Positions 21,901 through 38,428 of a stretch of DNA of 64,000 nucleotides are shown piece after piece. Where the stretch lies: assembly GCA_000378025.1 (NCBI GenBank), contig KB899087.1:1426001-1490000 (forward strand), given 5' to 3'. A program made the translations under genes and the position numbers. Below the pieces are notes generated by a model. That model saw nothing but the letters and a program-made list of their open reading frames with translations. It ran no database searches and was not told where the DNA came from. Origin of the DNA: Xanthobacteraceae bacterium 501b. GTDB taxonomy: Bacteria; Pseudomonadota; Alphaproteobacteria; Rhizobiales; Xanthobacteraceae. The first letter of the stretch is position 1; the number at the start of each line of letters is the position of its first letter.

Positions 21901-22011
21901 GGTGGCGCCATTGATGGACTGACCGAGGGCCGGCGCGGCGGTTAGAAGGGCAGCGGAGGCCAGCAGAGCGGCCCGGAGCGAAGCTGTCGATTGTCGGGGT
22001 CGGCGCATCAT
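12922..22011 (-). CDS. giant autotransporter adhesin (type V secretion) with PATR repeats
   Basis: The 3029-residue product begins with a Sec signal peptide (RAALLASAALLTAAPALGQS). A Gly/Asp-rich segment follows to about residue 300 (GGDGGDGG and GGGGGGG runs). Next come some 2000 residues of passenger-associated beta-strand repeats of the form GTGGLxKxGxGTLxLxGxNxYxGGT, which would build a long parallel beta-helix. The last 265 or so residues are the outer-membrane autotransporter barrel (for example LGAYGGYSRSWF, GELGYGLSVGP, GVKYDGQL), ending in the expected terminal Phe (QLQVRF). The passenger is threaded through its own barrel to the cell surface, where such proteins serve adhesion or aggregation. 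It stands alone as a transcription unit. Internal DNA repeats make copy-number variation and mis-assembly plausible. Confidence 0.95.
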   Translation of the reverse strand: MMRRPRQSTASLRAALLASAALLTAAPALGQSINGATNPTGPGGNGLPYIEVPPGGGGGGGGGGTTGGLGAAGNSPQWFTDNGDGGTPGLPDLSPVFLDGGDGGDGHLGGSGGGGGGGAHAYVGTSAPDTVVVGGDGGDGGEGGEFNTDFEGVAGGGGGPGAGGYGAVIELQGSPTPIALQYDVIGGDGGDGGSGASFTYDGGDFPVLLQGGAGNGGDAGVGVYLYGSGGTVEVLSSVNGGDGGMGGHGLLPTFGGIGGDGLVMAGSSTNVIIDAGQVITGGDGGISLSGTSGVGGYGILILGDNNVLTLFGTASGGIQGGNPASQSAGIAITGNGNTLVLTQSYAANGGVSVSGDFNILALGGNAGDSGGVFDAGSIGTSFSGFSQYEVIDDTSWTLTGESYSWASWDIQDGALSIDDPLSLDPTSELLISNSGQLTTTASMAINLPIDLYGGSGPGATFDVETGTVLILGGEIQGPGNLIVTGGGMLALDASNAYTGTTTVLQGTLSVAGAFPLGEMPGTLSLADGTMLEFAFQGDGPATNLTGAVTLAGNVTIFSPDATTGQISGNISDGSSSGGLTLSGQGTVLLSGANSFTGAVTVADGTLIAGSATALGSNGTVTVQEGATLQLNTSIATGSLAGAGAVIIGTNTLTVGANNASSSFSGNFSGTGGLTKTGSGTLTLQGVDADVSVLTIAGGTLVLDSQSVLGSGTVVAFSGGVSSTLQLNSNQTVAGLTGDGSLSLGSSTITVAAANDFTFAGAITGDGGSLVKAGTGTLTLSGSNSFTGPTLISGGTLVLAGGAALSDLTAVTVGSGTQLQLQASETIGGLAGSGMVTLAGTTLSLGGNGADTGFSGSISNGSLVKQGAGTTVLTGTYDLSALTIAAGIVQIGDGVSATTFQAAPIVNNGTLVLTPAQELVLADVISGSGAVTINAGNAPVTFNASNTYTGGTTITAGTLNLGSGAVAGAIAGDIVNNGTLAFNSSASPSFGGAISGTGGVSAIGGGVVTLSGANTYAGGTAISNGSTVSIGSDGNLGAGDGGISLANGTLAATGSFSSAREVVLGGAGGIDVASGQTLTLSGAIGETSTSQLTKSGDGVLVLSGANSYTGGTLVSGGTVAVSADSNLGAAIGGLTLDGGKLITTASFTSARNVTLGSGNGTFDVAPGTVLTLAGAFSGSGGLTKIGAGELALSGASSFTGGTSVTSGTLALYGATLATSSVSVADSGTLQGFGTIAGTVSVLAGGTLAGGVTGQPNPQHIALVTGSLTLANAADIALALGAAGNTGVAEVTGDLALGGTLSVSGEAVHGAGIYRVFTYTGTNSGSFASVDLSGLVDSASYTGTIETGNPGHVNLLLRDASPLQIWTTDNGTSFGGSGTWSSTGDTWYLASSGDTIPWGGQTGVFTGTAGTVTIHGEQTFQKLEFVTDGYVLQADGTEPASSLHVDGGGVLWVEGHDVTATISAPISGTGGIEKIGTGTLILTGSNSYVGGTKVSGGFLSVASASALGDAGNVLTLSDGGLATTGSFTLGSAVVLEGFGSLKTASGETLGLSGTISGTGSLRKEGLGTLVLSGSNTYGGATVIAEGTLEAQGGAALPDASAVRIEAAGTLQLDANEGIGSLAGSGAVNLQSYTLQVGYDASSSTFSGTITGTGGLVKQGVGTLVLTGTNVYSGGTTLAAGGIVVGNGGTSGSIAGNVTNNGSLSFYRSDVITFAGGISGTGGVAQVGSGTLVLSGTNSYAGGTLVSVGTLEVSADANLGQVSGPLVIEKGTLATTASFTTSRAVGLVGGGTLNVATGTTLQLTSAVSGDGGLTKRDDGTLILAADNNYEGTTTIHSGVLQLGNGGTTGSIRGAIVNDATLAFNRSDDFGFSNHVSGQGTVVQAGTGTLVVTGDVDAIGGVRIDQGTVQIGNGGTTGRISGPIVDNGTLVFARSDETRFDNVISGSGSVVQVGPGALILMGDNSYAGGTGIGAGSAIHVTADSALGALSGGITLAGGTLAAEQGFASARTVALVGGGTIRVADAAVFTLSGVLGGTGDFTKSGLGTLVLTGSNGYGGNTVVEAGTLQVGDGGTSGTISGNVANAGTLVFNRSDNIVYAGAISGAGTLVQAGTGALVLTGTGSYTGGTRIAAGTLVLGNGGTSGAITGNVVNDGTLAFNRADAVTFGGVISGSGTVAQYGAGTLTLTGANTYAGGTSVGSGATLQVASDGNLGAAAGSLTLAGGVLAPTASFASARAVTLTGSGGFSVGTGITLTLTGRVGGDGGLLLAGGGTLELGGINTYAGGTSVSGATLAVHADESLGKAGTALSLDGAALKVLHSFSTARDVALSAAGAVIEVTGDRFLAVSGRVTGTGVLTKTGEGRLTLNGANAYGGLIIHAGTVVGTTASIRGDVLDNGALVFDQSAAGTFADDIGGTGSLTVKGVGKLVVTGTAFHTGGTTIDSGTLQIGDGGTAGWVSGPIVNSGTLIYDLAGRYTFPVDLSGTGQVILEGGGTVDFVGSTYAGLIQTKDAHVILKRDTETDANFSIGARGVLSGTGSIGLLDVLDGGTVSPGYSPGTLEINGKMTLSSGSTYRADITAGNGNDLIAVNGEVGIDAGTTLDVHAERGSYANYTSYTVLTATEGVHGVFGTVTTNFAFLDILPDYEDDAVILNIVRKDIPFWREAHTFNQFSTANGIESLGAGNEVYDAVASQLKSEAFLAFDALSGEIYATTASVIQQQSVFTREAVIDRLRQASVGTNGAPLAYAANGPQTAGFGADVAAVMWMQGFGAQGDIASNGNAAAVSDTIGGFVGGFDAAFTEDWRLGAYGGYSRSWFDVSDRVSSGSMDNYELGLYSATQLGALALRLGAGYAWHDMSMSRTVAFAGYDGTNSSDVTASSAQVFGELGYGLSVGPVDLEPFIGLAYLHLDGWNTAEIGSTSALAVNAGAMDTLYSTLGLRGGRDIEVNGVAFTTSFTLGWQHAFGDTVPAAVMSFASGSAPFTIDGAPIATDTFVFGGGLSYEVDPNTRLGVKYDGQLASSAQQSVVSGQLQVRF

Positions 22012-22270
22012 GAATTCCGGTCCGCAACTTCACTGACTTCAGAATCTGCCCGCCGCCACACGCACACAGGCCTCATCTGGCTGGATATGCCTGACAGGTA
22101 CTGGAGTGCGTCGCAACGCGGCCCCGCGCGCCTGCTCAGGTTGGCATCAGCGTATACTGAGATACCAGGCGATCAAGGGGGCTCCGTCGTTAACACCGCT
22201 CAGCTCTCGGCTCGTCCCACGCTCGATTGACTCGTTCAAGAAATCGACATACCGTCTGTTTGTGTTCGTA

Positions 22271-22287
22271 ATATCTCTAGGCGATAT
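22271..22287. promoter_or_regulatory. candidate operator dyad before the four-module regulator gene
   Basis: ATATC and GATAT arms separated by 7 nt lie 10-27 nt before the regulator's ATG in an AT-rich pocket of otherwise GC-rich DNA. MerR-type regulators bind dyads in promoter spacers, so an autoregulatory site is plausible. The arms are short and this is only a candidate. Confidence 0.3.
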
Positions 22288-22297
22288 GTAGATCGAG

Positions 22298-24193
22298 ATG
22301 ACCCAGACGGCCACCACACGCTTCCCCTTTTCGATCGGTCACGTGGCCAAGGTCACAGGTGTCGCTGTCTCGACCATCCGCTCATGGGAGACCCAGGGGC
22401 TTCTCACCTCCACCAAGTCTTCCGGCGGCCACCGTTCCTATGGCGAGGCGGATATTGAACGCATCCGCCGCATTGACCGCATGCGCCGCGTCGAGGGCCA
22501 GAGCCTGTCCGGCATCCGTCGGTTCCTCGAAAGCGAGGAGGAGGCCACCGCCGCGCCGGAGAGCGAAACCGCGCCGGTCGCTGCCTTCAACCATCTCGGC
22601 GCCCGCGTCCGCAGCCTGCGCCAGGAGGCTGAAATGTCGCTGCGCGAGCTGTCCGAGCGCACGGACATCGCCTCCTCGCATCTGAGCATGTTCGAGCGTG
22701 GCGTGGCCTTTCTTTCGCCGGCACGGCTCAATGCCATTGCCGAAGTCTTTGGCCGCACGCTCGCGGAACTGCTGGGCGGCACCAAGGGGCGTGACTTTCC
22801 CGTGGTGCGGCATGGGCAGGGGCGCATCGTCGGCTCCTTCGGCCCCGGCGTCACCATCGAGCAGCTCACCGTCTCACAGCGCCTGATGGATGCCGAGGTC
22901 TGGACGATCGACCCCGAGCGCGAGAGCGACGGCTTCTACGCCCATGAGGGCGAGGAACTGATCTATGTGCTGGAAGGCTCGCTCGAACTCGCCCTCGCCG
23001 ACCGCGACGCGGAGGTGCTGAGCCCCGGCGACGGCGCCTATTTCAACAGCCGCATCGCTCATCGTTGGCGCAACACCGGCACTGTGCCGGCCAAGGTGCT
23101 GTGGATCAACACCGACAGCGACCGCCTCTCGACCATGAGCTTCGAGAAGACCGACCGGCGGCTCGGGCTCGGCGCCGGTCTTGGCGGCGGCATCGGCGAG
23201 GGAGCGCTCAGCCTCGAACTGCCGCAAGGCGCGCGGACCTTCCGCGTCATTGAGACCCATACCGAGGGGCATCCCACCCATATTCTCATCGAGCCGCTGG
23301 AAGGCCTCGACGCGGACAGCGTGGCCGGCAAGTCCCGCCAGTTTGCCGAGCGTTATGACAGCCTGCGGCCCATGCTCCTGCATGAACCTCGCGGCCATTC
23401 CGGCGCCTTTGGCCTCGTGCCCGTGGCGTCCAGCGCCGCCGATTTCGGCGCCTTTTTCATCTCGTCCTATGGCTATCCCGGCCTGTGCGGCCACGCGATC
23501 ATGGGCTACACGGCGGCGCTGCGCGCGCTTGGCCGTCTTTCGCGCCACCCGCGCTTCACCATCGAGGTACCGAACGGCATCCTCACCGTTCATGTCGGGG
23601 TCGAGGGCGACGCGGACGCCATCGCGCTCGAAATGCCGCCGGCCATCGTCTCGGAAACTGGCCGGCATGCCCGCGTCGCGGGGCACGACCTCGACGTCGC
23701 CATCGCCATGTGCGGCGACTGCTACGCGCTGGTCGATGCCGACGCGACCGGTCTGCGGCTCGATGTGAGCAGTATCGACCATCTGCTCGCTGTCGGCGAC
23801 GGGCTGCGCCACCACCTGAACGAAGCGTTGCCCCGCCGGCGTGGTGCGCAGCCGGCAGTCGACGCGGTGCTGTTCCATGGCGCGGGCGAGGATGGTGCCG
23901 TGCGTCAGTTCCTCGCCATTGATCGCCAGAAATTCGATCGCTCCCCGGGCGTCGCCGGCCTCGCCAGCCTGCTGGCGCTGCGCGGTGCCCAGGGCGCGGC
24001 CGCGCCGGGCGCGCGGCTGAACGCGGTCAGCCTGTTCGGCGGGCACCTCTCCGGCGAACTCATCACGACGACCCATGGCGCCGGCGGCGCCGTGGCGGTC
24101 ACGACCCGGATCACGGGACGCGCGCATCTCAAGGCCGTGGCGACGCTCATCCAGGAAGCGGGCGATCCCCTCGGCAGCGGCTTCCTGAGATAG
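22298..24193 (+). CDS. four-module regulator: MerR HTH + XRE HTH + cupin + proline-racemase-like domain
   Basis: The 631-residue protein starts with a MerR-type HTH (about 10-78: HVAKVTGVAVSTIRSWETQG, GGHRSYGEADIERI). A second, XRE-type HTH follows (about 98-155: LRELSERTDIASSHLSMFER), then a cupin (about 205-275: EGEELIYVLEGSLEL, SPGDGAYFNSRIAHRW). From about 313 to the end it is homologous to proline-racemase-family enzymes (HTEGHPTHILIEPL, LLHEPRGHSGAFG). The first catalytic Cys is kept (GLCGHAIMG, Cys397). The second motif reads FDRSPGVAGLAS, with Gly551 where enzymes have Cys, so racemisation by two-base catalysis should fail. The gene leads a same-direction operon with two intact racemase-family enzymes, so this domain probably senses their substrate. 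MerR alone or XRE-cupin fusions are common; this four-part combination is unfamiliar to me. Confidence 0.92.
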   Translation: MTQTATTRFPFSIGHVAKVTGVAVSTIRSWETQGLLTSTKSSGGHRSYGEADIERIRRIDRMRRVEGQSLSGIRRFLESEEEATAAPESETAPVAAFNHLGARVRSLRQEAEMSLRELSERTDIASSHLSMFERGVAFLSPARLNAIAEVFGRTLAELLGGTKGRDFPVVRHGQGRIVGSFGPGVTIEQLTVSQRLMDAEVWTIDPERESDGFYAHEGEELIYVLEGSLELALADRDAEVLSPGDGAYFNSRIAHRWRNTGTVPAKVLWINTDSDRLSTMSFEKTDRRLGLGAGLGGGIGEGALSLELPQGARTFRVIETHTEGHPTHILIEPLEGLDADSVAGKSRQFAERYDSLRPMLLHEPRGHSGAFGLVPVASSAADFGAFFISSYGYPGLCGHAIMGYTAALRALGRLSRHPRFTIEVPNGILTVHVGVEGDADAIALEMPPAIVSETGRHARVAGHDLDVAIAMCGDCYALVDADATGLRLDVSSIDHLLAVGDGLRHHLNEALPRRRGAQPAVDAVLFHGAGEDGAVRQFLAIDRQKFDRSPGVAGLASLLALRGAQGAAAPGARLNAVSLFGGHLSGELITTTHGAGGAVAVTTRITGRAHLKAVATLIQEAGDPLGSGFLR

Positions 24194-24235: not shown

Positions 24236-25111
24236 ATGATCACAGCCTCGTCCATTCGGCCGGCCCCGGCCGCCAGCTCGCTTTTCCGCTCTTTCGTCCT
24301 GCTGTTCGTGGGTGCCGTCGTGCTGGCGCTCTCAACCTTCCAGTCCGCCTTTGCCGCCGATCCGAACCTCGTGCTCGACCGCATCCGCAAGAGCGGCGAG
24401 CTGCGCGTGCCGGTCATGATCGGCGAGGAGCCCGGCTATATCCGCGACCGCAACACCGGGGAATGGAGCGGCTTCTACGTCGAGTGGGCCAACGACATCG
24501 CCACGCTGCTGAACGTCAAGGTCGTGCCTGTCGAAACCACCTGGGGCAACCTTGCAGCCGACTTCCAGGCCAACAAGATCGACATCGCGTTCGGACTGAA
24601 CCCGAACCCGAAGCGCGGCCTCGTGGTCGACTATCTCAGCGTCCCGCTGTTCACCGACGCCTGGGCCATCGTCACCAAGCCGGGCTTTACCAAGAAGACC
24701 TGGGCCGAGCTGAACGACCCGTCAGTGCGCATCGTCGTGCAGAAGGGCGGCACGATGCAGGTTGTCGCCGAGGCGCTCACCCCCAAGGCCAACATCATCG
24801 TGGTGGAAGACCGCCCGCTCGGCATCATGGAGCTGCAGGCCAACCGCGCCGACGCCATGATCCTCGCCGTGTTCGACGCCATCGACGTCTCCAAGGCGAT
24901 CAACGGCCAGATCGCGCTGCCGAGCCCGATGCTGCTCAACCCGGCGACCATCGGCATGCGCCGCGAGGAAGGCAATGAGGGCTACGAGAACTGGCTCACC
25001 AACTGGGTGAACCAGCAGCGCGCCCTCGGCCTCGCCCAGGGCAAGCTGCGCAAGGCCTTCGAGGCGCGCGGCATCGACCTCTCCGTGCTGCCGGCTGAAT
25101 TCAACTTCTGA
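24236..25111 (+). CDS. amino-acid ABC transporter, periplasmic substrate-binding protein (SBP family 3)
   Basis: The 291-residue product has a signal peptide (hydrophobic LLFVGAVVLALSTFQSAFA, cleavage after AFA). A family-3 binding-protein fold follows (RIRKSGELRVPVMIGEEPGY, FYVEWANDIATLLNVKV, FQANKIDIAFGLNPNPKR). It would bind a small polar amino acid in the periplasm and hand it to the permease encoded 85 nt downstream. It begins 42 nt after the regulator gene with an AGGGAA ribosome site, so it is in the same operon. The adjacent racemase-family enzymes suggest that the ligand is proline, a hydroxyproline or a related imino acid; this is an inference from context. Confidence 0.93.
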   Translation: MITASSIRPAPAASSLFRSFVLLFVGAVVLALSTFQSAFAADPNLVLDRIRKSGELRVPVMIGEEPGYIRDRNTGEWSGFYVEWANDIATLLNVKVVPVETTWGNLAADFQANKIDIAFGLNPNPKRGLVVDYLSVPLFTDAWAIVTKPGFTKKTWAELNDPSVRIVVQKGGTMQVVAEALTPKANIIVVEDRPLGIMELQANRADAMILAVFDAIDVSKAINGQIALPSPMLLNPATIGMRREEGNEGYENWLTNWVNQQRALGLAQGKLRKAFEARGIDLSVLPAEFNF

Positions 25112-25196: not shown

Positions 25197-25844
25197 GTGT
25201 TCGACTGGTCCGTCATCACCCAAAACGCCCATCTGTTCGCCTGGGGACTGGTCGTCACCCTCGAATACACGGTCATCACCTGCGTTCTCGGCCTGATCAT
25301 CGGGCTGCTGATCGCGCTGGTGCAGCTGTCGCCGATCAAGGCGCTGCGCGTTGTCGGCCGGCTGTTCGTCGAGTTCTTTCGCAATGTGCCGCTGCTGGTC
25401 TGGCTGCTGTGGAGCTATTACGCGCTGCCGATCTTCGCCGGCATCAACATCAGCAAGCAGGCGGCGGGTATTCTCGCCCTCAGCCTCTATGGCGGCGCCT
25501 ACTACGCCGAAATCCTGCGCGCCGGCATCCAGTCGCTCGACCATGGACAGGCGGACGCAGCCAAGGCGCTCGGCATGCGCTCCTGGCAGGCCATGCGCCG
25601 CATCATCCTGCCCCAGGCCTTCCGCCAGATGATCCCGCCGCTGGCGGGCCAGACCATCATCCAGATGAAGAACACCACGCTGCTGTCGGTGCTCACCGTG
25701 CCGGACCTGCTCTACCAGGCGAGCTACGTGTCGTCGTTCACCTACCGGCCGATGGAAGTCTACACGGTGGTCGGTATCATTTTCCTCGTCATTCTCATTC
25801 CCTCCAACTATCTCGCGCGCCGGCTCGAGATGAACTCCCAGTGA
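25197..25844 (+). CDS. amino-acid ABC transporter permease (HisM/GlnP type)
   Basis: The 215-residue protein starts at a GTG. It has the typical layout of polar amino-acid permeases: an N-terminal TWLVT-like segment (WGLVVTLEYTVITCVLG) and the family signature EFFRNVPLLVWLLWSYYALP. The EAA coupling loop for the ATPase is ILRAGIQSLDHGQADAAKALG. Five hydrophobic segments are visible. Only one permease gene is present, so the channel is probably a homodimer. It stops 11 nt before the ATPase gene. Confidence 0.92.
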   Translation: MFDWSVITQNAHLFAWGLVVTLEYTVITCVLGLIIGLLIALVQLSPIKALRVVGRLFVEFFRNVPLLVWLLWSYYALPIFAGINISKQAAGILALSLYGGAYYAEILRAGIQSLDHGQADAAKALGMRSWQAMRRIILPQAFRQMIPPLAGQTIIQMKNTTLLSVLTVPDLLYQASYVSSFTYRPMEVYTVVGIIFLVILIPSNYLARRLEMNSQ

Positions 25845-25855
25845 GGGCGCGAACC

Positions 25856-26677
25856 ATGACCCGCCTTTCCCCCGATGCCGCGCCGCTGGTCGAGGTGAGC
25901 CAGGTGCGCAAGTCGTATGGCTCGCACGAAGTGCTCAAGGGCATCGACCTCACCGTCTATCCCGGCGAAGTGGTGGCGCTGCTCGGCTCGTCCGGTTCGG
26001 GCAAGACGACGCTGCTGCGCTGCGTGAACCTCTTGGAGAATCCCAGCTCCGGCCGGATCGCCATCGACGGCTCGCCGATATTCGACCGGGCGGCTGATGG
26101 CCACGACAATGCCCGCATCAGCGGCCGCGACGTGGCGGCCATGCGCAGCCGCGTCGGCATGGTGTTCCAGCAGTTCAATCTCTTTCCGCACATGAACGTG
26201 CTGGCCAACGTGATGGAAGGCCCGCGCACCGTGCTGGGCGAGGACGACGCCAGCAACCGCGCCCGCGCGCTCGACCTTCTCGCCAAGGTCGGTATGTCGG
26301 ACTTCGCCGACCGCATGCCCGGCCGCCTCTCGGGCGGGCAGAAGCAGCGGGTCTCCATCGCCCGCGCCCTCAACATGCGCCCCTCGCTGATGCTGTTCGA
26401 CGAGCCGACCTCGGCGCTCGACCCCGAACTGGTCGGCGAGGTGCTCAACACCATGATCACCCTCGCCCGCGAGGGGATGACGATGCTGGTCGTCACCCAT
26501 GAGCTGGGCTTCGCGCTGGAAGTCGCCACCCGCGTGGTGTTCCTGGATCAAGGCGCCATCTGCGCGCAGGGAACGCCGCAGGAGGTTCTGCTCCACCCCA
26601 CCAATGAGCGCGTCCGCACCTTCGTGAACCGCTTCCACGCCACCGCCGAGCTGATGCGCCCGCTGCTGCAGACCTGA
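25856..26677 (+). CDS. amino-acid ABC transporter ATP-binding protein
   Basis: The frame is open far upstream, but the ATG at 25,856 (11 nt after the permease stop) gives the normal 273-residue length. The motifs are Walker A GSSGSGKTTLL, Q-loop VFQQFNLFPH, signature RLSGGQKQRV, Walker B LMLFDEPTSALD and the switch His in VVTHELG. It belongs to the GlnQ/HisP group and energises uptake of the amino acid bound by the upstream periplasmic protein. Confidence 0.94.
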   Translation: MTRLSPDAAPLVEVSQVRKSYGSHEVLKGIDLTVYPGEVVALLGSSGSGKTTLLRCVNLLENPSSGRIAIDGSPIFDRAADGHDNARISGRDVAAMRSRVGMVFQQFNLFPHMNVLANVMEGPRTVLGEDDASNRARALDLLAKVGMSDFADRMPGRLSGGQKQRVSIARALNMRPSLMLFDEPTSALDPELVGEVLNTMITLAREGMTMLVVTHELGFALEVATRVVFLDQGAICAQGTPQEVLLHPTNERVRTFVNRFHATAELMRPLLQT

Positions 26678-26783: not shown

Positions 26784-27692
26784 ATGACCAAGACCAACTG
26801 GCAGGGCATCCACAGTGTCCTCGTCACGCCCTTCCTGCCCGAGGGCGCCATCGACTTCCCGCGCTTCGAAGCGCTTGCCGAGGCCAATATCGCCAATGGC
26901 GCCGACGGCCTCATCGTCTGCGGCTCGACCGGCGAATTCTACGCCATGAGCGTCTCCGAGCGGGTGAAGCTGTTCGAGGCGACGGTGAAGGTCGCCGCCG
27001 GCCGCGTGCCGGTGCTGGCCGGCGTGTCCGATCTCCACACCGATGTGGTTCTGGAACTCACCAAGGCCGCCGAGACGACGGGCTGCGACGGCATCCTCGC
27101 TTTGCCGCCGATCTACGCCAAGCCGGACCTGCGCGAGGCCGAGCACTTCTACCGCCGCATCTGCGCCGCTTCCGGCCTGCCGGTCATGCTCTACAACAGC
27201 CCGGTGCGCATCGGCGTCAACATCACGCCCGATCTGGTGGCGCGCCTCGCCGAGATTCCGAACGTCGTCGCCATCAAGGATTCCTCCGGCGACATCCAGC
27301 AGGTCGCCGAGCTGTGCCAGAAGGTGAAGGGCGAGCTGGCGGTGTTCGTCGGCTATGAGACGATGATCCGCTCCTCCCTGCCGCTCGGCGTCGTCGGTGT
27401 CGTCGCCATGGCGCACCAGCTCTCCGGCCGCCTCGTGCGCCGCTATTACGACGCCTGCCTCGCCGGAGACACCGCGACGGCGGACCGGCTGGAGCCGGCG
27501 CTGTTCGCCATCTACCGCTGCTTCAAGACCGGCAGCTTCTATGCCGGCATCAAGGCGGCGATGAACACGCTCGGCCAGCCAGTCGGCATCCCGCGCGAGC
27601 CGCTGCTGCCCTTCTCGGACACCCAGCTGGCCAGCGTGGCGAAGATCCTCGCCGACGCCGACGTCGCCGCCACCATCAACACGCTCGCCTGA
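26784..27692 (+). CDS. DapA-family lyase/deaminase, candidate pyrroline-4-hydroxy-2-carboxylate deaminase
   Basis: The 302-residue TIM-barrel protein has the class I aldolase-type pair of the family: Schiff-base Lys165 (NVVAIKDSSGD) and Tyr137 (VMLYNSP). It also has the GSTGEFYAM carboxylate-binding loop. The family includes dihydrodipicolinate synthase, N-acetylneuraminate lyase and the deaminase that converts 1-pyrroline-4-hydroxy-2-carboxylate to 2-oxoglutarate semialdehyde. The company of racemase-family enzymes and aldehyde dehydrogenases makes the last the best guess, because it would feed a semialdehyde to the dehydrogenases. A TTG at 26,748 is in frame, but ATG 26,784 fits the family N-terminus. 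Family is certain, substrate moderate. Confidence 0.88.
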   Translation: MTKTNWQGIHSVLVTPFLPEGAIDFPRFEALAEANIANGADGLIVCGSTGEFYAMSVSERVKLFEATVKVAAGRVPVLAGVSDLHTDVVLELTKAAETTGCDGILALPPIYAKPDLREAEHFYRRICAASGLPVMLYNSPVRIGVNITPDLVARLAEIPNVVAIKDSSGDIQQVAELCQKVKGELAVFVGYETMIRSSLPLGVVGVVAMAHQLSGRLVRRYYDACLAGDTATADRLEPALFAIYRCFKTGSFYAGIKAAMNTLGQPVGIPREPLLPFSDTQLASVAKILADADVAATINTLA

Positions 27693-27707: not shown

Positions 27708-28715
27708 ATGCGCTCAACCCGCATTATCCAGGGCATCGATTCCCACACCGCCGGCTGCCCGCTGCGCCTCATCACCTCAGGCTTCGGGCCGATCCGCGGC
27801 GCCACCATGGTGGAAAAGCGCGCCGACCTGATGAGCCGCGACTGGCTGCGCCAACTCGTGCTGTTCGAGCCGCGCGGCTCGTTCAACATGCCCGCCGCCG
27901 TGCTCACCGAAGCCTGCTCGCCCGACGCCGATATCGGCATGCTGATCCTGGAGCCGGACACCTATCCCCCCATGTGCGGCCATTGCGCCATGGCGGTCGC
28001 CACCATCGCCGTTGAGGCCGGCTACATCACCGCGCAGGAAGGCGAGACGCTGGTGCGGCTCGACACCCCGGCGGGCGTCGTCCCGGCGCGGGTGAAGGTG
28101 GAGAATGGCCGCGCCGTTTCCGTCACGCTGGAGATGCCGCTGAGCTTCCTCTACCAGCGCGACGTGTTCGTCGAGACCAAGAGCTTCGGCAAGGTCCGCG
28201 CCGACATCGCCTTCGGCGGCGATTTCTATCTGATCGTCAAGGGCTCCGATCTCGGCCTCGACCTCACCACCGACAATGCTTGGGCGCTGGTGAGCGCGGC
28301 GGCGGAACTGCGCGCCGGGCTGAAGGACATTCCGGTCCAGCACCCGACGCTCGCCCATGTCAACGAGATCTACCAGATCGAGATCGTCGGCGACGGCGAC
28401 GGCGTGCGCTTCGACGGCAAAAACGTCGTGGTCTGCCCGCCGACCGTGATCGACCGCTCGCCCTGCGGCACCGGCACCGCCTCGCGCATGGCGATGCTGC
28501 ACGGCAAGGGCGAGCTGAAGGTGGGGGACATTTTCCGCCATGCCGGCATCCTCGACACCGTGTTCACCGGTGCGATCCAGGGCGAAGACAAGGTCGGCGA
28601 CCTGCCCGCGATCGGCTGCACCGTCACCGGCTCAGCCTACCTCACCGGCACCTTCAACTTCTTCCTCGATCCCAACGACCCGTTCCAGCAGGGCTTCCGC
28701 CTGACGGGCGTCTGA
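27708..28715 (+). CDS. proline racemase / 4-hydroxyproline 2-epimerase family enzyme (copy 1)
   Basis: The 335-residue protein has both catalytic cysteines of the family: Cys90 in PPMCGHCAM and Cys253 in VIDRSPCGTGTA. It also has the N-terminal IDSHTAGCPLR motif. Two cysteines indicate a racemase or epimerase rather than the Ser/Cys trans-3-hydroxyproline dehydratase. A residue after the first motif is unusual: CGHC, where I would expect Gly at the last position. It starts 16 nt after the lyase gene. In the pathway proposed here it would invert C2 of trans-4-hydroxy-L-proline; proline racemase activity is an alternative. Confidence 0.9.
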   Translation: MRSTRIIQGIDSHTAGCPLRLITSGFGPIRGATMVEKRADLMSRDWLRQLVLFEPRGSFNMPAAVLTEACSPDADIGMLILEPDTYPPMCGHCAMAVATIAVEAGYITAQEGETLVRLDTPAGVVPARVKVENGRAVSVTLEMPLSFLYQRDVFVETKSFGKVRADIAFGGDFYLIVKGSDLGLDLTTDNAWALVSAAAELRAGLKDIPVQHPTLAHVNEIYQIEIVGDGDGVRFDGKNVVVCPPTVIDRSPCGTGTASRMAMLHGKGELKVGDIFRHAGILDTVFTGAIQGEDKVGDLPAIGCTVTGSAYLTGTFNFFLDPNDPFQQGFRLTGV

Positions 28716-28738: not shown

Positions 28739-30214
28739 ATGTCCCACGATTTCGACCCGAACGGCGTCGCCGCCATCACCGATCACCTGATCGACGGGCG
28801 ACGCCTCGCCGGGGACGGCGCGGAAATCGCGCTGATCCGCCCGTCCGACGGCGCGGCGATCGGCACCCTCCGCGCGGCGGACGAGGCGCTGGTGGACGCG
28901 GCCATGCGCAGCGCCGCCAACGCCCGCACCGCCTCCGGCTGGGCCACCGCCACGCCGCTGGAACGGGCGCGGGTGCTGAAAGCGTGGGCCGACCTCATCG
29001 ACGCGCGGCGCACCGAGCTCGGGCGGCTGGAAGCGGCGACGACGACCCGGCCGGTGGCCGACGTCATCACCCGCGACCTCGTCCGCGCGGCGGGCGCCGT
29101 GCGCTACTTCGCCGAATGGGCGGACAAGATCGAAGGAACGCTGATCGCCGGTGCGAACAGCGGCACCACCTTCCTCAAGCCGGAGCCCTATGGCGTCATC
29201 GCCTCCATCGCGCCGTTCAACTTCCCGGCGATCAACGCCATCTGGAAGTCCGCCCCGGCGCTGGCGACCGGCAATGCGGTGGTGCTGAAACCTTCCGAGC
29301 TCACCCCGTCCTCGGCTGTCATGATCGCCGAACTCGCCATCGAGGCCGGGCTCCCCGCCGGCCTGTTCAACGTGGTGCAGGGCGCGGGCGCCACCGGCTC
29401 TGCGCTGGTGCGCCATCCGCTCACGGCTAAGATCACCTTCACCGGCTCCTCCGCCACCGGCGCGCGGGTGATGGCGGACGCGGCGATGACCGGCACCAAG
29501 CCGCTCACCCTGGAACTCGGCGGCAAGACGCCCCAGTTGGTCATGGACGACGCGCATGATCTCGACGCGCTCGCCGCCACCATCGCCGGCGGGTTTCTGG
29601 CCAATGCCGGGCAGGTCTGCACCGCCGGTACGCGGCTGATCGCGCCGCGCCGGCTGCTGGACGAACTGACGGAGAAGATCATCGACATCGCGCAGGCGCG
29701 CATCGCCGGCCCCACCTGGGACACGCGCGCAACCCTGCCACCGATCATCAGCGAGAAGCAGGCGGCCCGCATCGACGCCATGCTGGCACAGACGGTGGCC
29801 GACGGCGCCACCGTCCTCACCGGCGGCCGGCGCTGCGCCACCATGAATGCCGGGGCCTATGTCGAGCCGACCGTGCTCTCGGGCGTGCCCGACACGTCGG
29901 TCGGCTTCCGCGAGGAGTTCTTCGGCCCGGTGCTGTCCGTCTACGCCTATGACGACGAGGACGAGGCGCTGGCGATGGCCAACCATCCCAGCTACGCGCT
30001 CGCCGCCAGCCTTTACACCACCAGCGCCGCCAAGGCGCTGGCCCTCCCCGCCCGCCTCAATGCCGGCACGGTCTGGGTCAACGGCCATGGCCGCCAGCCC
30101 GATTTCGCCACCCCGCAGGGCGGCTTCGCCGGCTCCGGCTTCGGCAAGGAAATGGGGCGTGCGGGGCTTGAGGGCTTCCTGCGCTTCAAGACCGTCTGGC
30201 TCAACCACGGCTGA
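28739..30214 (+). CDS. NAD(P)-dependent aldehyde dehydrogenase (first of two)
   Basis: The ATG at 28,739, preceded by AGGAGAGG, gives 491 residues; the frame is open further upstream but overlaps the racemase gene. Catalytic Cys294 lies in NAGQVCTAGTR and the general base Glu259 in TLELGGKTPQ. The nucleotide-binding turn FTGSSATGARV and the PFNFPAINAIWK anchor are also present. It would oxidise a semialdehyde to an acid in the catabolic route of this operon. Which of the two dehydrogenases handles 2-oxoglutarate semialdehyde cannot be decided from sequence alone. Confidence 0.92.
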   Translation: MSHDFDPNGVAAITDHLIDGRRLAGDGAEIALIRPSDGAAIGTLRAADEALVDAAMRSAANARTASGWATATPLERARVLKAWADLIDARRTELGRLEAATTTRPVADVITRDLVRAAGAVRYFAEWADKIEGTLIAGANSGTTFLKPEPYGVIASIAPFNFPAINAIWKSAPALATGNAVVLKPSELTPSSAVMIAELAIEAGLPAGLFNVVQGAGATGSALVRHPLTAKITFTGSSATGARVMADAAMTGTKPLTLELGGKTPQLVMDDAHDLDALAATIAGGFLANAGQVCTAGTRLIAPRRLLDELTEKIIDIAQARIAGPTWDTRATLPPIISEKQAARIDAMLAQTVADGATVLTGGRRCATMNAGAYVEPTVLSGVPDTSVGFREEFFGPVLSVYAYDDEDEALAMANHPSYALAASLYTTSAAKALALPARLNAGTVWVNGHGRQPDFATPQGGFAGSGFGKEMGRAGLEGFLRFKTVWLNHG

Positions 30215-30218
30215 GAAC

Positions 30219-31916
30219 ATGTCCGAACACGCATATGACTACATTGTCGTCGGCGGCGGCGCGGCAGGTGCCGTGCTGGCGAGCCGGCTTTCGGAAGCCT
30301 CGAACCTCAAGGTCGCGCTGATCGAGGCCGGGCCGGACACGCCGCCCGGCGCCGAGCCGGCCGACACGCTCGACGCCTATCCGATCGTCGCCTATTTCAA
30401 CCGGCTCTATCACTGGCAGAACCTGTCCATCCACCTCAACGCCCCCAAGCCCGGCGCGGCGGGGCGGCGCTATGAGCAGGCGCGGGTGATGGGCGGGGGC
30501 ACCTCGATCAACGGCCAGTTCGCCTTTCGCGGCGTGCCCTGGGATTATGAGCACTGGCGCGAGGACGGCGCCGAGGGTTGGGGCTGGGACGACGTGCTGC
30601 CCTATTTCCGCAAGCTGGAAACCGACCTCGATTATGGCGACAGCCAGCTGCATGGCAGCCACGGCCCGCTGCCGCTGCGCCGCATTCCCGAAAAGGACTG
30701 GTCGCCCTTCGCCAAGACCGTGGCGAAGGTGCTCGACACGAAGGGCGTGGCCAATATCCGGGACCATAACGGCGTCTTCGACGACGGCTATTTCCCGATG
30801 ACCATCAACAATGTGGAGGGAAAGCGCGTTTCCACCGCCCGCGCCTATCTCACGCGCGAGGTGCGCGCCCGGCCGAACCTGACCATTCTCGCCGAAACCG
30901 AGATGACCGAGCTACTGTTCGAGGGCCGCCGTGTCACCGGGCTGAAGGCGCAGGGCCCGCAGGGGCCGCTCACCCTCAAAGCGCGCGAGGTGATCCTCTC
31001 CACCGGCGCGCTGCAGACGCCGGCCCATCTCATGCGCGCCGGCATCGGTCCGGCGGCGCATCTGAAGGAGTTCGGCCTCAATGTGCGGGCGGACCGGCCG
31101 GGCGTCGGGCAGAACCTGCAGGACCACCCGATGGTGGCCTTCGCCGCCTATCTGCCAAAAGCCGCGCGCCTGCCGGCCAGCCAGCGCCGCCACATCCAGC
31201 TGGGCTATCGCTACTCGTCCGGCCTGCCGGAGACCACGCCGGGCGACATGTTCGTGCTGCCCTCCAACCGCGCGGCCTGGCACCCGCTTGGGCGGCGGCT
31301 GGCCTCGATCCTCGTCTGCGTTAACCGGCCGTACTCCACCGGCGAGGTGCGGCTGCAGGGAAGCGACGCCGCGACCGCGCCCTTCGTCAATTTTCGCCAG
31401 CTCTCGGATGAGCGCGACCTCGTGCGGCTGGAGGACGGCATGCACCGGCTGTGGGGCATCGTCACCGATCCGGCGATGGACGGGGTGATCGAGAGCATCT
31501 TCCCCGCCACCTTTTCCGAGCGCGTACGCAAGCTCGGCGCGGTCAGCCGCACCAACTGGTTCATGACGCTGATGGCCGCCGGCATCATGGCCACCGGCCC
31601 GCTGTCCCGCAAGTTGATGATCGAGAATGTCATCACCCCCGGCCTCAAGGCGCGCGAGATGATGGGCGACCGCGAGGCGCTGCGTGCCTGGATCCGGGAC
31701 AATGCCTGCGGCAGCTGGCACGCCTCGGGCACCTGCCGCATCGGCCGCCCGGACGATCCACGCGCCGTGGTCGACAGCGCGGCCCGGGTGATCGGCGTCG
31801 AGGGGTTGCGCGTGGTCGACGCTTCGATCATGCCGGCTGTCATCAGCGCCAACACCATGCTCACCACCATCATGGCCGGCGAGAAGATCGCCGACGCCAT
31901 CAAGTCCGGCCGCTAG
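30219..31916 (+). CDS. GMC-family FAD oxidoreductase (choline-dehydrogenase-like)
   Basis: The 565-residue protein begins with the ADP-binding motif YIVVGGGAAGAVLASRLSE. It has the GMC signatures RVMGGGTSINGQFAFRG and STGALQTPAHLMRAGIG, and the C-terminal active site GSWHASGTCRIG (His501) paired with SANTML (Asn545). Members oxidise alcohols with FAD and pass electrons to oxygen, quinones or cytochromes. The ATG lies 4 nt after the aldehyde-dehydrogenase stop. A hydroxyproline pathway normally needs an FAD enzyme for the epimerised D-imino acid, usually of the DAAO type, and none is present here. Either this GMC enzyme fills that step or the operon handles a different alcohol. Confidence 0.93.
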   Translation: MSEHAYDYIVVGGGAAGAVLASRLSEASNLKVALIEAGPDTPPGAEPADTLDAYPIVAYFNRLYHWQNLSIHLNAPKPGAAGRRYEQARVMGGGTSINGQFAFRGVPWDYEHWREDGAEGWGWDDVLPYFRKLETDLDYGDSQLHGSHGPLPLRRIPEKDWSPFAKTVAKVLDTKGVANIRDHNGVFDDGYFPMTINNVEGKRVSTARAYLTREVRARPNLTILAETEMTELLFEGRRVTGLKAQGPQGPLTLKAREVILSTGALQTPAHLMRAGIGPAAHLKEFGLNVRADRPGVGQNLQDHPMVAFAAYLPKAARLPASQRRHIQLGYRYSSGLPETTPGDMFVLPSNRAAWHPLGRRLASILVCVNRPYSTGEVRLQGSDAATAPFVNFRQLSDERDLVRLEDGMHRLWGIVTDPAMDGVIESIFPATFSERVRKLGAVSRTNWFMTLMAAGIMATGPLSRKLMIENVITPGLKAREMMGDREALRAWIRDNACGSWHASGTCRIGRPDDPRAVVDSAARVIGVEGLRVVDASIMPAVISANTMLTTIMAGEKIADAIKSGR

Positions 31917-31930
31917 GACAGGGGAACGAC

Positions 31931-32941
31931 ATGGCAACCCGCCGCTGGATTTCGACCATCGACAGCCACACGGCGGGCCACCCCACCCGCGTCGTCACCG
32001 GCGGCGTGCCGCCGCTCAAGGGCGACACGGTGGAGGCGCGGGCCGAGGACTTCCGCGCCCGCTTCGACCCGCTGCGCACCTTCCTGCTGCATGAGCCGCG
32101 CGGCCATGCGGCGATGGTCGGCGTGGTGATGACGGAAAGCGCGCGGGCGGATTTCGGCGCCTTCTTCCTCGGCAGCTACAAATATCTTGAAATGTGCGGC
32201 CACGCGACGATCGGGCTCGCGGTGACGCTCGACCATATGGGCCTGATCGGCCCCTCCGACGCACCGCTCAGTTCCTTCACGCTGGAAGTGCCGGCCGGCA
32301 TCATCACCGTCCATGTCGAGCGCCGCAACGGTGCCGTCGCTGCCGTCACCTTCGAGAACGTGCCGGCCCATGTCGCCGCCTGCAACGTCCCGGTCGCCGC
32401 CCTGGGGGTGAACGTGAATGCCGATGTGGTGTGGGGCGGCAACTGGTACGGCCTCATTGCCGCCCGCGCCGCCGGGGTGGAACTGGCGCCGTCCGGCGTC
32501 TCCCACGCCATGGCCGTCGGCGCGGCGCTGAAGGCGGCCCTGAACGCCGGCATCAATGAGGGCCGCGTGCCGGGCGCCACCCGGCCGGTCGATTCCATCC
32601 TGTTCTACGAGACCGAGGCGGACGATCACGGTCTGGTCAGCCGCCAGCTGGTGGTGCTGGAATCGAACAAGTTCGACCGCTCGCCCTGTGGCACCGGCTC
32701 CTCGGCGCGGCTGGCGCAGATGGTAGCGCGCGGCGAACTCGGCCTCGACCAGCCCATCCGCACCCGCAACATTCTCGGCGTCGATTTCACCGCCACCGCG
32801 CGGGCGGTCGCGGCGGAGGCCGGCGCCCAAAAGGCCGGCGCTATCGCGCCGCATGTTGTCGGTCTCGCCCATATCACCGGCGAGCACCGGTTCGTGCTCG
32901 CGCAAGGCGACCCATTGCCGGACGGCTTCCTCTGCCGCTGA
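31931..32941 (+). CDS. proline racemase / hydroxyproline epimerase family enzyme (copy 2)
   Basis: The 336-residue protein has Cys89 in LEMCGHATIG and Cys253 in FDRSPCGTGSS, plus the N-terminal IDSHTAGHPTRVV. It differs clearly from copy 1. It is the closer match to the racemase-like domain of the regulator: both share LLHEPRGH and the DFGAFF pattern before the first Cys, and both have CGHA. Two racemase-family enzymes in one operon suggest two substrates or two stereochemical steps. The start is 14 nt after the GMC stop, with AGGGG upstream. Confidence 0.92.
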   Translation: MATRRWISTIDSHTAGHPTRVVTGGVPPLKGDTVEARAEDFRARFDPLRTFLLHEPRGHAAMVGVVMTESARADFGAFFLGSYKYLEMCGHATIGLAVTLDHMGLIGPSDAPLSSFTLEVPAGIITVHVERRNGAVAAVTFENVPAHVAACNVPVAALGVNVNADVVWGGNWYGLIAARAAGVELAPSGVSHAMAVGAALKAALNAGINEGRVPGATRPVDSILFYETEADDHGLVSRQLVVLESNKFDRSPCGTGSSARLAQMVARGELGLDQPIRTRNILGVDFTATARAVAAEAGAQKAGAIAPHVVGLAHITGEHRFVLAQGDPLPDGFLCR

Positions 32942-32979: not shown

Positions 32980-34434
32980 ATGACCGACCTTTCCACCTAT
33001 GACGAAACCATCGAGCTGCTGATCGACGGCACCTGGTGCCAGGGCTCCGAGGGCAAGAGTGAGCCGCTGGAAAACCCGGCCACCGGCGAGGTGCTCGGCA
33101 CCGTTCCGCATGCCTCCGACGCCGATCTCGCCCGCGCGCTCGACGCCGCGCAGCGCGGCTTCAAGGTCTGGAAGGCGATGACCGCGCAGGCGCGCTACAC
33201 GCTGATGATGAAGGCGGCGGACCTCATCGAGGCGCGCAAGGAGCGCATCGGGCGCATCCTGACGCTGGAAAACGGCAAGCCGCTCGGCGAAGCCGTGCCG
33301 GAAGTCCAGTTCGCCGCCGACGCCACGCGCTGGTATGCCGAAGAAGGCAAGCGCGCCTATGGCCGCATTGTGCCCGCCCGCATGGCCAATGTGCGCCAGA
33401 TGGTGCTGAAGGAGCCGGTCGGCCCGGTCGTCGCCTTCGCCGCCTGGAACTTCCCGTCCTCCAACGTCATCCGCAAGATCGCTGGCGCGCTCGGCGCGGG
33501 CTGCTCGATCATCATCAAGCCGGCGGAAGAGACCCCCGGCACGGCGGTCGCCATCGCCCGCTGCTTCCAGGAGGCCGGGCTGCCGGCGGGCGTGCTGAAC
33601 GTGGTGTTCGGTGCGCCGGCGCATGTCAGCAAGGTTCTGATCGCCTCGCCCATCCCCAAGGCGGTGACGCTCACCGGCTCCACGGCCGTGGGCAAGCAGC
33701 TGCAGCGCCTGGCCGCCGATACGCTGAAGCGCTGCACCATGGAGCTGGGCGGCCATGCGCCGGTCATCGTCCATGACGATGCCGATCTCGATCTGGCCGC
33801 CCGCACACTGGTGGCGTTCAAGTTCCGCAATGCCGGCCAGGTCTGCACCTCGCCGACGCGCTTCTTCGTCCATGAATCGCTTTACCAGCCCTTCGTCGCC
33901 CGCTTCGTCGAGCTGGCCTCGGCGCTGAAGGTGGGCAACGGCCTCGATTCCGGCATCCAGATGGGGCCGATGATCGCCCGCCGCCGCCTCGCGGCGATGG
34001 AAGAGCTGGTGAACGATGCCGTCGCCAAGGGCGCGAGCCTGAAGCTGGGCGGCAAGCGCATCGGCAATCAGGGGCACTTCTTTGCCCCCACCGTTCTGGC
34101 CGACGTGCCGGCCGACGCCGCGATCATGTCGAGCGAGCCGTTCGGCCCCATCGCCCCGCTCACCCCGTTCTCCAGCTTCGACGAGGTGATCGAGCGGGCC
34201 AATGCGCTGCCCTATGGCCTCGCCTCCTTCGTCTTCACCCGCTCCGGCGCGCTGGCGGCCCGCACGGAGGAAGCGCTCGACGCCGGCCTCGTCGGCGTCA
34301 ACCACATGGCAGTGTCGACGCCGGAGACGCCCTTCGGCGGCGTCAACGAGTCGGGCTACGGCTCGGAGAGCGGCATCGAGGGGCTGGACGCCTTCCTGCG
34401 CACCAAGTTTGTGTCTGAACTCGCCGCTCTTTGA
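32980..34434 (+). CDS. NAD(P)-dependent semialdehyde dehydrogenase (second ALDH)
   Basis: The 484-residue protein is of the succinate-semialdehyde dehydrogenase type. It has EPVGPVVAFAAWNFP, FKFRNAGQVCTSPTRF with catalytic Cys289, and TMELGGHAPVI with Glu255. It is the last gene of the same-direction run and is the better candidate for 2-oxoglutarate semialdehyde dehydrogenase, which would deliver 2-oxoglutarate to the TCA cycle. That choice is an inference from subfamily resemblance only. Confidence 0.92.
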   Translation: MTDLSTYDETIELLIDGTWCQGSEGKSEPLENPATGEVLGTVPHASDADLARALDAAQRGFKVWKAMTAQARYTLMMKAADLIEARKERIGRILTLENGKPLGEAVPEVQFAADATRWYAEEGKRAYGRIVPARMANVRQMVLKEPVGPVVAFAAWNFPSSNVIRKIAGALGAGCSIIIKPAEETPGTAVAIARCFQEAGLPAGVLNVVFGAPAHVSKVLIASPIPKAVTLTGSTAVGKQLQRLAADTLKRCTMELGGHAPVIVHDDADLDLAARTLVAFKFRNAGQVCTSPTRFFVHESLYQPFVARFVELASALKVGNGLDSGIQMGPMIARRRLAAMEELVNDAVAKGASLKLGGKRIGNQGHFFAPTVLADVPADAAIMSSEPFGPIAPLTPFSSFDEVIERANALPYGLASFVFTRSGALAARTEEALDAGLVGVNHMAVSTPETPFGGVNESGYGSESGIEGLDAFLRTKFVSELAAL

Positions 34435-37284: not shown

Positions 37285-38428
37285 CGAAAAGCGGCGCGTC
37301 CTGATCGTGGACGATGACCACGACTTCGCGGCCAGCCTTGCCCTGCTGCTGGAGTTGGAAGGCTATGAGGTGGTCGTCGCCCATCATGGAGCGGCGGCGC
37401 GGGAAGCGGTGGCGCGCGTGCCGGTGGCGGTGGCGCTGGTCGACATTCGCCTCGGCCATGAGGACGGGGTGGCCGTCGCGGTTGATCTCGGGCGGATCCG
37501 TCCGGACCTGCTCACGGTCATGGTCACCGCCTATGCCTCGGTGCAGACCGCGATCAAGGCGCTGCAGGCCGGCATCTACGACTATGTCTGCAAGCCGTTC
37601 GAGCCCGCCGAGCTGCTGGCGACGCTCGCCCGATGCTTCGACCGGCACCGCCTGGCGGCAGACCGGGCGCAGGCGGAGGAGTTGCTGCGCCGCAGCCGCC
37701 GCATGGAGGCGGTTGGCCGGCTTTCGGCTGGCATCGCCCATGATTTCAACAATCTGCTCACCGTTGTCGGCGGAAGCCTCAAGCTTCTGCAGGAGGAAAT
37801 GGCGCGGGGCGCGGCCGGCGACGCCGCCATCATGCGCGAACTGGTGGTCGACGCCCTGGGGGCGGTGGAGGAAGGCATTCTGGCCAATCGGCGTCTGCTC
37901 GCCGTCGGCCGGGCGCAGCCTCTGTTGCCGCGCGTGCTGGATCTCGGCGACGCGGTCGAACAGGTGGTGAGCCGGGCGCGCCACGCCTTTGGCGCGGGGG
38001 TGACGCTGGAGCTGCGCCCGTCGCCGCTGGCCTGCCTCGCCCTTGCCGATCCCCATCAGTTGGAGGCCAGCCTGCTAAACTTGATCTTCAATGCCCGCGA
38101 CGCGGTGGCGGGCGCCGGCACCGTGCGCGTGGCCATCGACACATGCGATCTGCCGCCGGGCTCCGCCCTTCTCCTGGGTGACATGGCGCCGGGCCTCTAT
38201 GCCGGGATCGTGGTCGAGGATGACGGCTGCGGCATGGCCTCGGATATCGCCGAGAATGCCCTCCAGCCGTTCTTCTCCACCAAGCCGGCCGAGAGCGGTA
38301 GCGGCCTCGGCCTGCCCACCGCCTATGGGTTCGCCCGCCAGTCCGGCGGCAATCTCCTCATCGAGAGCGAGGCGGGCGTCGGAACGCGCGTCACGCTTCT
38401 GCTGCCGGCGACGCCGCCGCGCCCCTGA
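37274..38428 (+). CDS. hybrid receiver-histidine kinase
   Basis: The 384-residue protein has an N-terminal receiver (VLIVDDDHDFA, phospho-acceptor Asp57 in VALVDIRLG, Lys107 in YVCKPFEP). A transmitter follows, with His156 in SAGIAHDFNNLL and ATPase motifs VVEDDGCGMA and GSGLGLPTAYG. There is no membrane segment or output domain. The gene overlaps the permease-kinase by 11 nt, so the two act together. The receiver can take phosphate from the first kinase and control this second kinase, which would then phosphorylate the OmpR-type regulator encoded next to it. The ATG at 37,274 gives the complete receiver. Confidence 0.92.
   Translation: MWHDEKRRVLIVDDDHDFAASLALLLELEGYEVVVAHHGAAAREAVARVPVAVALVDIRLGHEDGVAVAVDLGRIRPDLLTVMVTAYASVQTAIKALQAGIYDYVCKPFEPAELLATLARCFDRHRLAADRAQAEELLRRSRRMEAVGRLSAGIAHDFNNLLTVVGGSLKLLQEEMARGAAGDAAIMRELVVDALGAVEEGILANRRLLAVGRAQPLLPRVLDLGDAVEQVVSRARHAFGAGVTLELRPSPLACLALADPHQLEASLLNLIFNARDAVAGAGTVRVAIDTCDLPPGSALLLGDMAPGLYAGIVVEDDGCGMASDIAENALQPFFSTKPAESGSGLGLPTAYGFARQSGGNLLIESEAGVGTRVTLLLPATPPRP

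Follow-up and report, generated by a model that had tools for sequence, protein, structure and literature searches.

Within the window, a 64,000-nucleotide stretch of the genome of Xanthobacteraceae bacterium 501b, a single gene encodes a protein, REG, in which two DNA-binding modules, a cupin and a domain of the proline racemase family are joined in one chain. We propose, with a probability of roughly 0.6, that REG is a ligand-gated one-component regulator acting locally on its own operon, and that its racemase domain is a retired enzyme that serves as the sensor. According to the initial annotation, REG is the first gene of an operon that also encodes two enzymes of the racemase family, and the Pro_racemase scores of PR1 and PR2 bear this out. 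The genes and modules on which the argument draws are as follows.

22298..24193, + strand: REG, MerR-XRE-cupin-racemase-domain regulator, 631 aa (open reading frame, Pfam and homologue alignment)
22328..22534, + strand: REG MerR HTH module, residues 11-79 (Pfam)
22607..22771, + strand: REG XRE/HTH_3 module, residues 104-158 (Pfam)
22898..23107, + strand: REG cupin module, residues 201-270, with H216, E220 and H255 invariant in 16/16 (Pfam, alignment)
23246..24184, + strand: REG proline-racemase-family domain, residues 317-629, with C397, H399 and D547 kept and G551 (Pfam, alignment)
24236..25111, + strand: SBP, family-3 solute-binding protein (Pfam, SBP_bac_3)
25197..25844, + strand: PERM, ABC permease of the HEQRo_perm_3TM type (Pfam, NCBIfam)
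25856..26677, + strand: ATP, ABC ATPase (Pfam)
26784..27692, + strand: DHDPS-family enzyme (Pfam)
27708..28715, + strand: PR1, proline-racemase-family enzyme with the Cys/Cys pair intact (Pro_racemase, 345.1 bits)
28739..30214, + strand: ALDH1, aldehyde dehydrogenase (Pfam)
30219..31916, + strand: GMC-family oxidoreductase (Pfam)
31931..32941, + strand: PR2, proline-racemase-family enzyme with the Cys/Cys pair intact (Pro_racemase, 261.9 bits)
32980..34434, + strand: ALDH2, succinate-semialdehyde-dehydrogenase-like, under the curated cut-off (Pfam, NCBIfam)

Reading frame, modules and distribution of REG

The REG frame runs uninterrupted on the + strand from ATG to TAG (22298-24193, 631 codons plus stop). 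As the initial annotation had read the chain, it contains four modules, each of which scored above its Pfam gathering cut-off: MerR_1 at residues 11-79 (72.1 bits against 21.6), which identifies the N-terminal HTH as one of the MerR family; HTH_3 at 104-158 (42.4 against 23); Cupin_2 at 201-270 (61.6 against 27.2); and Pro_racemase (PF05544) at 317-629 (159.6 against 27), which assigns this domain to the proline racemase family. HTH_3 followed by Cupin_2 is the arrangement that defines XRE-cupin regulators, and REG carries it with extra modules at both ends. A sequence search of solved structures matched the N terminus to MerR proteins and residues ~298-630 to proline racemases, the best of them being 6j7c (residues 313-630, E 4.6e-36). 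The AlphaFold model of REG (mean pLDDT 73, pTM 0.60, with a weak linker) also matched proline racemases by fold, with a best Foldseek E of 5.4e-26; between residues 401 and 610 the pLDDT blocks were mostly 82-92, except for 511-520 (60) and 591-600 (79).

When the whole protein was used as the query (E <= 1e-60), full-length REG was found in 9 of 397 genomes of the order and in 7 of 141 genera, its own included, and all nine matches span nearly the full length. A profile search of 385 genomes of the class gave a match in three, two of them full-length (the own genome and G436) and the third (G731) a standalone racemase only. Ten REG loci came from a scan of named genomes that was seeded with two conserved peptides, so that divergent relatives would escape it; they lie in Ancylobacter rudongensis, A. 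vacuolatus, A. amanitiformis, A. tetraedralis and A. polymorphus, in Oricola indica, Hyphomicrobiales bacterium UR115, Labrenzia sp. 011 and Hoeflea sp. YIM 152468, and in one MAG. Once four duplicates (identical genes) had been dropped, 16 distinct REG proteins were available including that of the window, to which the other 15 are 49-97% identical.

The spread of REG is patchy, within Alphaproteobacteria. Since the copy in G045, a genome of another family, is 88% identical to that of the window and groups among the Ancylobacter proteins in the tree, its operon seems to be a probable case of horizontal transfer. The full-length homologues also settle a doubt that the initial annotation had attached to its single-frame reading, namely that REG might be an assembly artefact or a chance read-through of separate genes. 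The same fused frame is present in 16 distinct proteins, 15 of them at 49-97% identity to the window's, and all four of the modules are under purifying selection, which leaves the artefact explanation with virtually no chance of being correct.

Source of the racemase domain

The initial annotation had called the set of modules unusual. This stands for the four-module build; MerR, XRE and cupin in one chain, on the other hand, are not unique to REG, and we rejected the notion that this combination is itself unprecedented once three-module proteins were found. These were sought with a profile of the first ~305 residues of REG (E <= 1e-35), which gave eight matches in 398 genomes of the phylum, two of them four-module proteins (the own genome and G077) and six ending after the cupin; the two matches among 289 genomes of the class were both four-module. 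Three of the six short proteins and a homologue on a Sinorhizobium meliloti plasmid were analysed with Pfam, and all four consist of MerR, XRE and cupin modules with no racemase domain. Of the records in a plasmid collection, 607 align with at least one part of REG, all of them over less than 80% of its length; among the best 25 of these 607 matches, 12 are three-module proteins aligning over residues 11-272. Such relatives (~270 aa) occur in Rhizobiaceae and other Alphaproteobacteria. Those from Sinorhizobium and others resemble REG over residues 11-272, with about 35-38% identity, but differ from it in ending after the cupin. As MerR-XRE-cupin proteins also occur by themselves, it is most likely that a three-module regulator came first and that the racemase domain was added to it.

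Genes next to the three-module regulators hint at their function. The neighbouring transaminase scored above the curated cut-off as a GABA-transaminase equivalog in all three loci tested (L051, L103 and L053); three more (L048, L050 and L052) have a gene of similar size in the transaminase place and an adjacent SSADH-like gene, and at L049 no such pair lies beside the three-module gene. Three-module proteins beside GABA-transaminase genes are candidate regulators of GABA catabolism. It would be a three-module regulator of this kind, often found beside gabT, that gained a PR2-type racemase at its C terminus.

Among the racemase paralogues encoded in the own genome, PR2 is closest to the REG racemase domain, at 36% identity over residues 313-630, the others being 25-29% identical. 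A first maximum-likelihood tree of 59 rows, from which two truncated PR2 fragments were left out and the genes entered complete as L058 and L034 (identical record), joined the 16 REG domains in one clade beside the 15 PR2 proteins (100/98). For a second tree, of 52 rows, five standalone relatives from plasmid and genome searches were added and 13 near-duplicate or long-branch rows removed; the plasmid enzymes used were H1, H2, H5 and H9, of 13 racemase-only proteins among the matches listed. REG and PR2 each form one clade in this tree (100/99 in both cases), and REG, PR2 and the five standalone enzymes together form one group (100/99). In both trees the tool warned that long branches meet at some joins.

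Inside this PR2-type group REG branches with the standalone enzymes in the best tree (84/85). We therefore dropped the view, suggested by the first tree, that the REG domain is the sister of PR2 specifically. A clade of REG and PR2 is nevertheless not rejected (AU p 0.478). In light of these two results we restrict the donor claim to the PR2-type group: the trees indicate a single origin of the domain within it, with PR2 itself a possible donor. The suggestion in the initial annotation that the operon's own enzyme family had been recruited for sensing agrees, as regards the source of the domain, with its position inside that group.

Rhizobium sp. ACO-34A (L102) and Shinella sp. PSBB067 (L100) have a related SBP-PERM-ATP-ALDH-GMC operon in which a standalone PR2-type gene lies just before SBP. 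As this is the slot that the fusion occupies in the window, a simple gene fusion would be a plausible route to REG. In ACO-34A the standalone gene directly follows a GntR/FCD regulator gene. The related operons span 9980-16698 in L100 and 9303-18834 in L102, and in the latter an annotated aldolase and a D-amino-acid-dehydrogenase-like gene come next.

Active-site residues and the putative sensor

Residues C397, H399, D547, R548, S549 and P550 are invariant in all 16 REG proteins. At position 551, where two-Cys racemases have their second catalytic Cys, 14 of the 16 carry Gly and two (G085 and G087) carry Cys. The 14 proteins with G551 have Val at position 552 and the other two have Gly, and the CGTG stretch has changed to GV[ATG][GA] in 14/16. 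DRSPCGTG is kept in every PR2 protein (15/15) and in the five standalone relatives (5/5). With C397 present and G551, the REG of the window departs from the two-Cys pattern (CGH ... DRSPC) of a ProR/4HypE-type enzyme. Its Pro_racemase score is 160 bits, compared with 249 and 251 for the intact-site regulators G085 and G087 and 262 for PR2, and REG lies far below the NCBIfam equivalog cut-offs for ProR (120 against 556 bits), 4HypE (109 against 450) and t3HypD (111 against 540). Compared with these three enzymes, the REG domain has the same fold and keeps the His, the Asp and the first Cys, but it is fused to DNA-binding modules and has lost the second catalytic Cys in 14/16.

According to passages of PMC4113996, the two Cys of ProR and 4HypE act on opposite faces and Asp and His coordinate the prolyl nitrogen; we equate H399 and D547 with these two residues through our own motif mapping. 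Since the His, the Asp and the first Cys are kept and the second Cys is Gly, two-base racemisation is not expected of the window's REG, and ligand binding by its racemase domain is expected. The stronger claim, that loss of the second Cys means an inactive protein, is weakened by standalone members with Gly in this position, L003 (own genome, C1:3603221-3604213) and L082, both of which read DRSPGGTG. The same passages of PMC4113996 describe t3HypD as working with one Cys, some clusters as having neither or only one, and a 4HypE with a Ser/Cys pair. As standalone Gly members exist and t3HypDs use one Cys, the Cys-to-Gly change is no proof of a dead site.

These exceptions raise the prospect that all REG members are bifunctional, with one-base chemistry (dehydration or slow epimerisation) performed by C397 and regulation coupled to turnover. 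C397 is indeed invariant in 16/16, one-Cys dehydratases exist in the family (PMC4113996) and the two standalone members with DRSPGGTG would fit. We nonetheless consider this quite improbable, given that 14/16 REG proteins have the CGTG stretch rewritten, that on the first tree the REG domains, like PR2, show faster divergence than PR1, and that t3HypDs carry Thr in this place and not Gly-Val (PMC4113996, in part).

The racemase domain is under purifying selection and is not decaying. Its dN/dS is 0.07-0.22 in four close pairs, beside 0.15-0.27 for PR2 and 0.07-0.08 for PR1 (three pairs each), and in those four pairs selection on it is looser than on the other three REG modules.

The cupin might instead be the real sensor, the racemase domain having become an appendage for dimerisation or stability that no longer needs a ligand. 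In XRE-cupin regulators the cupin has been called a predicted signal-sensing domain (PMC7901475), the REG cupin residues H216, E220 and H255 are invariant in 16/16, and the three-module relatives, several of them beside gabT, exist without a racemase domain. A scaffold would not, however, need C397, H399, D547 and the HT.GHPT motif, all invariant in 16/16, and the domain originated in the enzyme group to which the operon's PR2 belongs, so that we regard the cupin as an unlikely seat of sensing.

In the reading that we favour, with the racemase domain as sensor, a pathway metabolite, in all probability an amino or imino acid on which PR1 or PR2 acts, would enter the old active site between the lobes, and closure of the lobes would be passed via the cupin to the two HTH modules, releasing a block on transcription. 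After the fusion Gly replaced the second catalytic Cys in most sampled lineages, if the residues are read in this direction, and the pocket could thereby hold its ligand with no two-base racemase turnover. An amino or imino acid is the probable ligand because the operon encodes an SBP_bac_3/HEQRo_perm_3TM transporter and two racemase-family enzymes. Proline or hydroxyproline should not be assumed, since the HTEGEPT motif of proline-bound 6j7c reads HTxGHPT in 16/16 REG proteins, and neither is specifically supported as the ligand.

The G085 and G087 regulators, which keep both Cys and form the first branch of the REG clade, may be bifunctional. It is a tentative and rather doubtful idea that they are trigger enzymes, which bind DNA and both sense and racemise their substrate, the G087 regulator supplying the PR2 reaction. 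If this were true, the window's REG would represent a later, retired stage in a series from enzyme through bifunctional fusion to dedicated sensor, all of them extant. The G087 locus is the exception that has no PR2: GMC is followed directly by an ALDH gene whose product shares 78% identity with the ALDH that comes after PR2 in the related G085, no PR2 remnant was detected between GMC and ALDH, and the best racemase of the genome, its regulator apart, reaches only 36% identity to PR2. As this is a single genome, for which contamination is estimated at 5%, the absence of PR2 counts as one case and not as a trend.

That an enzyme fold can become a sensor is already known (BzdR, HutC, FarR and MocR: PMC3602430 and PMC5320631, in part). 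BzdR joins an XRE HTH to a shikimate-kinase fold, and removal of catalysis gave inducibility in vivo; HutC and FarR are given as further regulators with enzyme-fold sensors (passages of PMC3602430). REG shares with BzdR the XRE HTH, an enzyme-derived C-terminal domain, in which catalysis is lost in BzdR and probably in REG, and a catabolic operon. It differs in its enzyme fold, in its added MerR and cupin modules and in that an enzyme of the domain's donor group is encoded in the same operon; the intermediates are natural for REG, as far as the sequences indicate, and synthetic for BzdR (Q1 and Q2; PMC3602430, in part). The BzdR model NF006015 scored 41.6 bits against a cut-off of 204, over REG 79-169, and REG has no kinase domain, which sets it outside the BzdR subfamily. 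ErfA, PauR and PsdR of Pseudomonas are XRE-cupin regulators that act as local repressors (passages of PMC7901475); they have the XRE and cupin core in common with REG, and presumably also local regulation of small-molecule metabolism, but not the MerR and racemase modules. MocR, GabR and EhuR likewise use an enzyme fold as sensor (PMC5320631, in part), though theirs is a PLP aminotransferase fold with a GntR HTH and no cupin, unlike the MerR/XRE, cupin and racemase modules of REG, in which Pfam found no GntR HTH or aminotransferase domain. MocR-type genes adjoin related PR1/PR2-type genes in L095 and L101.

Regulators are widely held to arise from enzymes that gain DNA-binding domains. Direct experimental approaches to the enzyme origin of regulators are few (passages of PMC3602430). 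In the open-licence literature, among the matches listed, no MerR-XRE-cupin-racemase regulator is described, in line with the initial annotation, which had known of none; the available parts of PMC4113996 and PMC5882156 describe no proline-racemase-fold regulator of this build, 'MerR' in the former being an author's name. What appears to be new is the racemase fold as a putative sensor, together with apparently natural intermediates. Each step seems to survive in extant species, from the three-module regulator and the standalone enzyme to a fusion whose catalytic residues are intact and one that has lost the second Cys, and the change from enzyme to sensor is thus testable on natural proteins, each step of which can be expressed and assayed. 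REG would add a new sensor fold to the bacterial one-component regulators, and is a possible sensor for cyclic or amino-acid metabolites.

Operon, promoter element and mode of regulation

The order REG-SBP-PERM-ATP-DHDPS-PR1-ALDH1-GMC is kept in all eight loci compared gene by gene, and PR2 comes next after GMC in seven of them; all 16 REG loci have PR1, and 15 of them have PR2. A close PR1 (E <= 1e-90) was found in 9 of 297 genomes of the order, eight of which also have REG. G261 (L095) has a close PR1, yet no REG, PR2 or GMC gene was found in the PR1 region; its cluster has a MocR-type regulator (EhuR-like, below cut-off) and a different ABC transporter nearby. The operon proteins of G045 (L017, L058) are about 82-96% identical to those of the window.

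Comparison of the loci revealed a conserved element upstream of REG, which comprises the following features in the window.

22227..22255, + strand: putative promoter, TTGACT - 17 bp - TACCGT (TTGAC and TANNNT with the same spacing in 16/16 loci)
22235..22252, + strand: putative operator copy 1, TTCAAGAAATCGACATAC, which takes up most of the spacer and extends over the first bases of the -10-like box
22265..22282, + strand: putative operator copy 2, a direct repeat offset by 30 bp in the window and identical to copy 1 at 9/18 positions

All 16 REG genes are preceded by TTGAC-N3-TTCAA-N-A-N-ATC and then by TANNNT, which the TTGACN hexamer precedes by 17 bases. In a comparison of nine genus representatives, identity is 80.5% over the first 30 bases of the element, a figure in which 10 positions are fixed by the locating pattern and the other twenty average about 71%; the next 30 bases are 44.1% identical, and four 30-base stretches upstream of the element 25.6-28.1%. 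A second TTCAA copy lies 29 bp on (28-30 by locus), with a mean of 12.0/18 identities in the nine representatives compared with 3.9-8.1 at 17 other offsets, the one-base adjustments per locus having been picked by eye. Against shuffled sequences this second repeat reached p <= 0.05 in 12 of the 16 loci, the others being the window, L017, L027 and L028, and in the window a free scan favoured an offset other than 30 bp. The element is visible by comparison of loci only: a strict sigma-70 consensus scan of the window sequence alone found no promoter at this place, and a repeat finder run on the single sequence found nothing.

With up to two mismatches allowed, the element pattern has one match in the 5.1 Mb of the own genome (22227-22251 of the window), and none in the control. 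This single occurrence fits REG as a dedicated regulator of one operon, itself included. A search of six loci (13-18 kb) that encode three-module relatives found no match to operator copy 1 within three mismatches. In L048, L050-L053 and L103 (genes around 8 kb), the S. meliloti plasmid among them, the MerR-XRE-cupin regulators mostly occur with SSADH-like genes.

We suggest that REG binds the TTCAA-type direct repeats overlapping the promoter, where each of its two HTHs may recognise a portion of the repeat pair, and that without ligand it would block transcription of REG-SBP-PERM-ATP-DHDPS-PR1-ALDH1-GMC-PR2-ALDH2. Repression is the mode of action that we think fairly likely, because the spacing is the normal 17 bp, the site lies inside the promoter, and the XRE-cupin regulators and BzdR, as described in the sources cited above, behave in this way.

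MerR proteins bind between the -35 and -10 boxes, and the promoters that they activate have a long spacer of 19-20 bp. REG could accordingly be a MerR-type activator that distorts the promoter and turns the operon on with ligand, as its well-scored N-terminal MerR HTH (72.1 bits) and the position of the best-conserved element, between the -35- and -10-like boxes, would allow. The apparent spacer is, however, 17 bp in 16/16 loci and not 19-20 bp, a length that depends on a weak assignment of the -10 box, and activation strikes us as possible but the less probable mode.

Apart from the REG operon, two neighbouring regions of the window were noted by eye. Divergent from the operon, at 12922-22011 on the - strand, is a gene for a 3029-aa autotransporter-like protein with many passenger repeats. 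Downstream, within 34627-38428, one frame combines a membrane region resembling a permease with a histidine kinase, and the next frame is receiver-plus-kinase-like.
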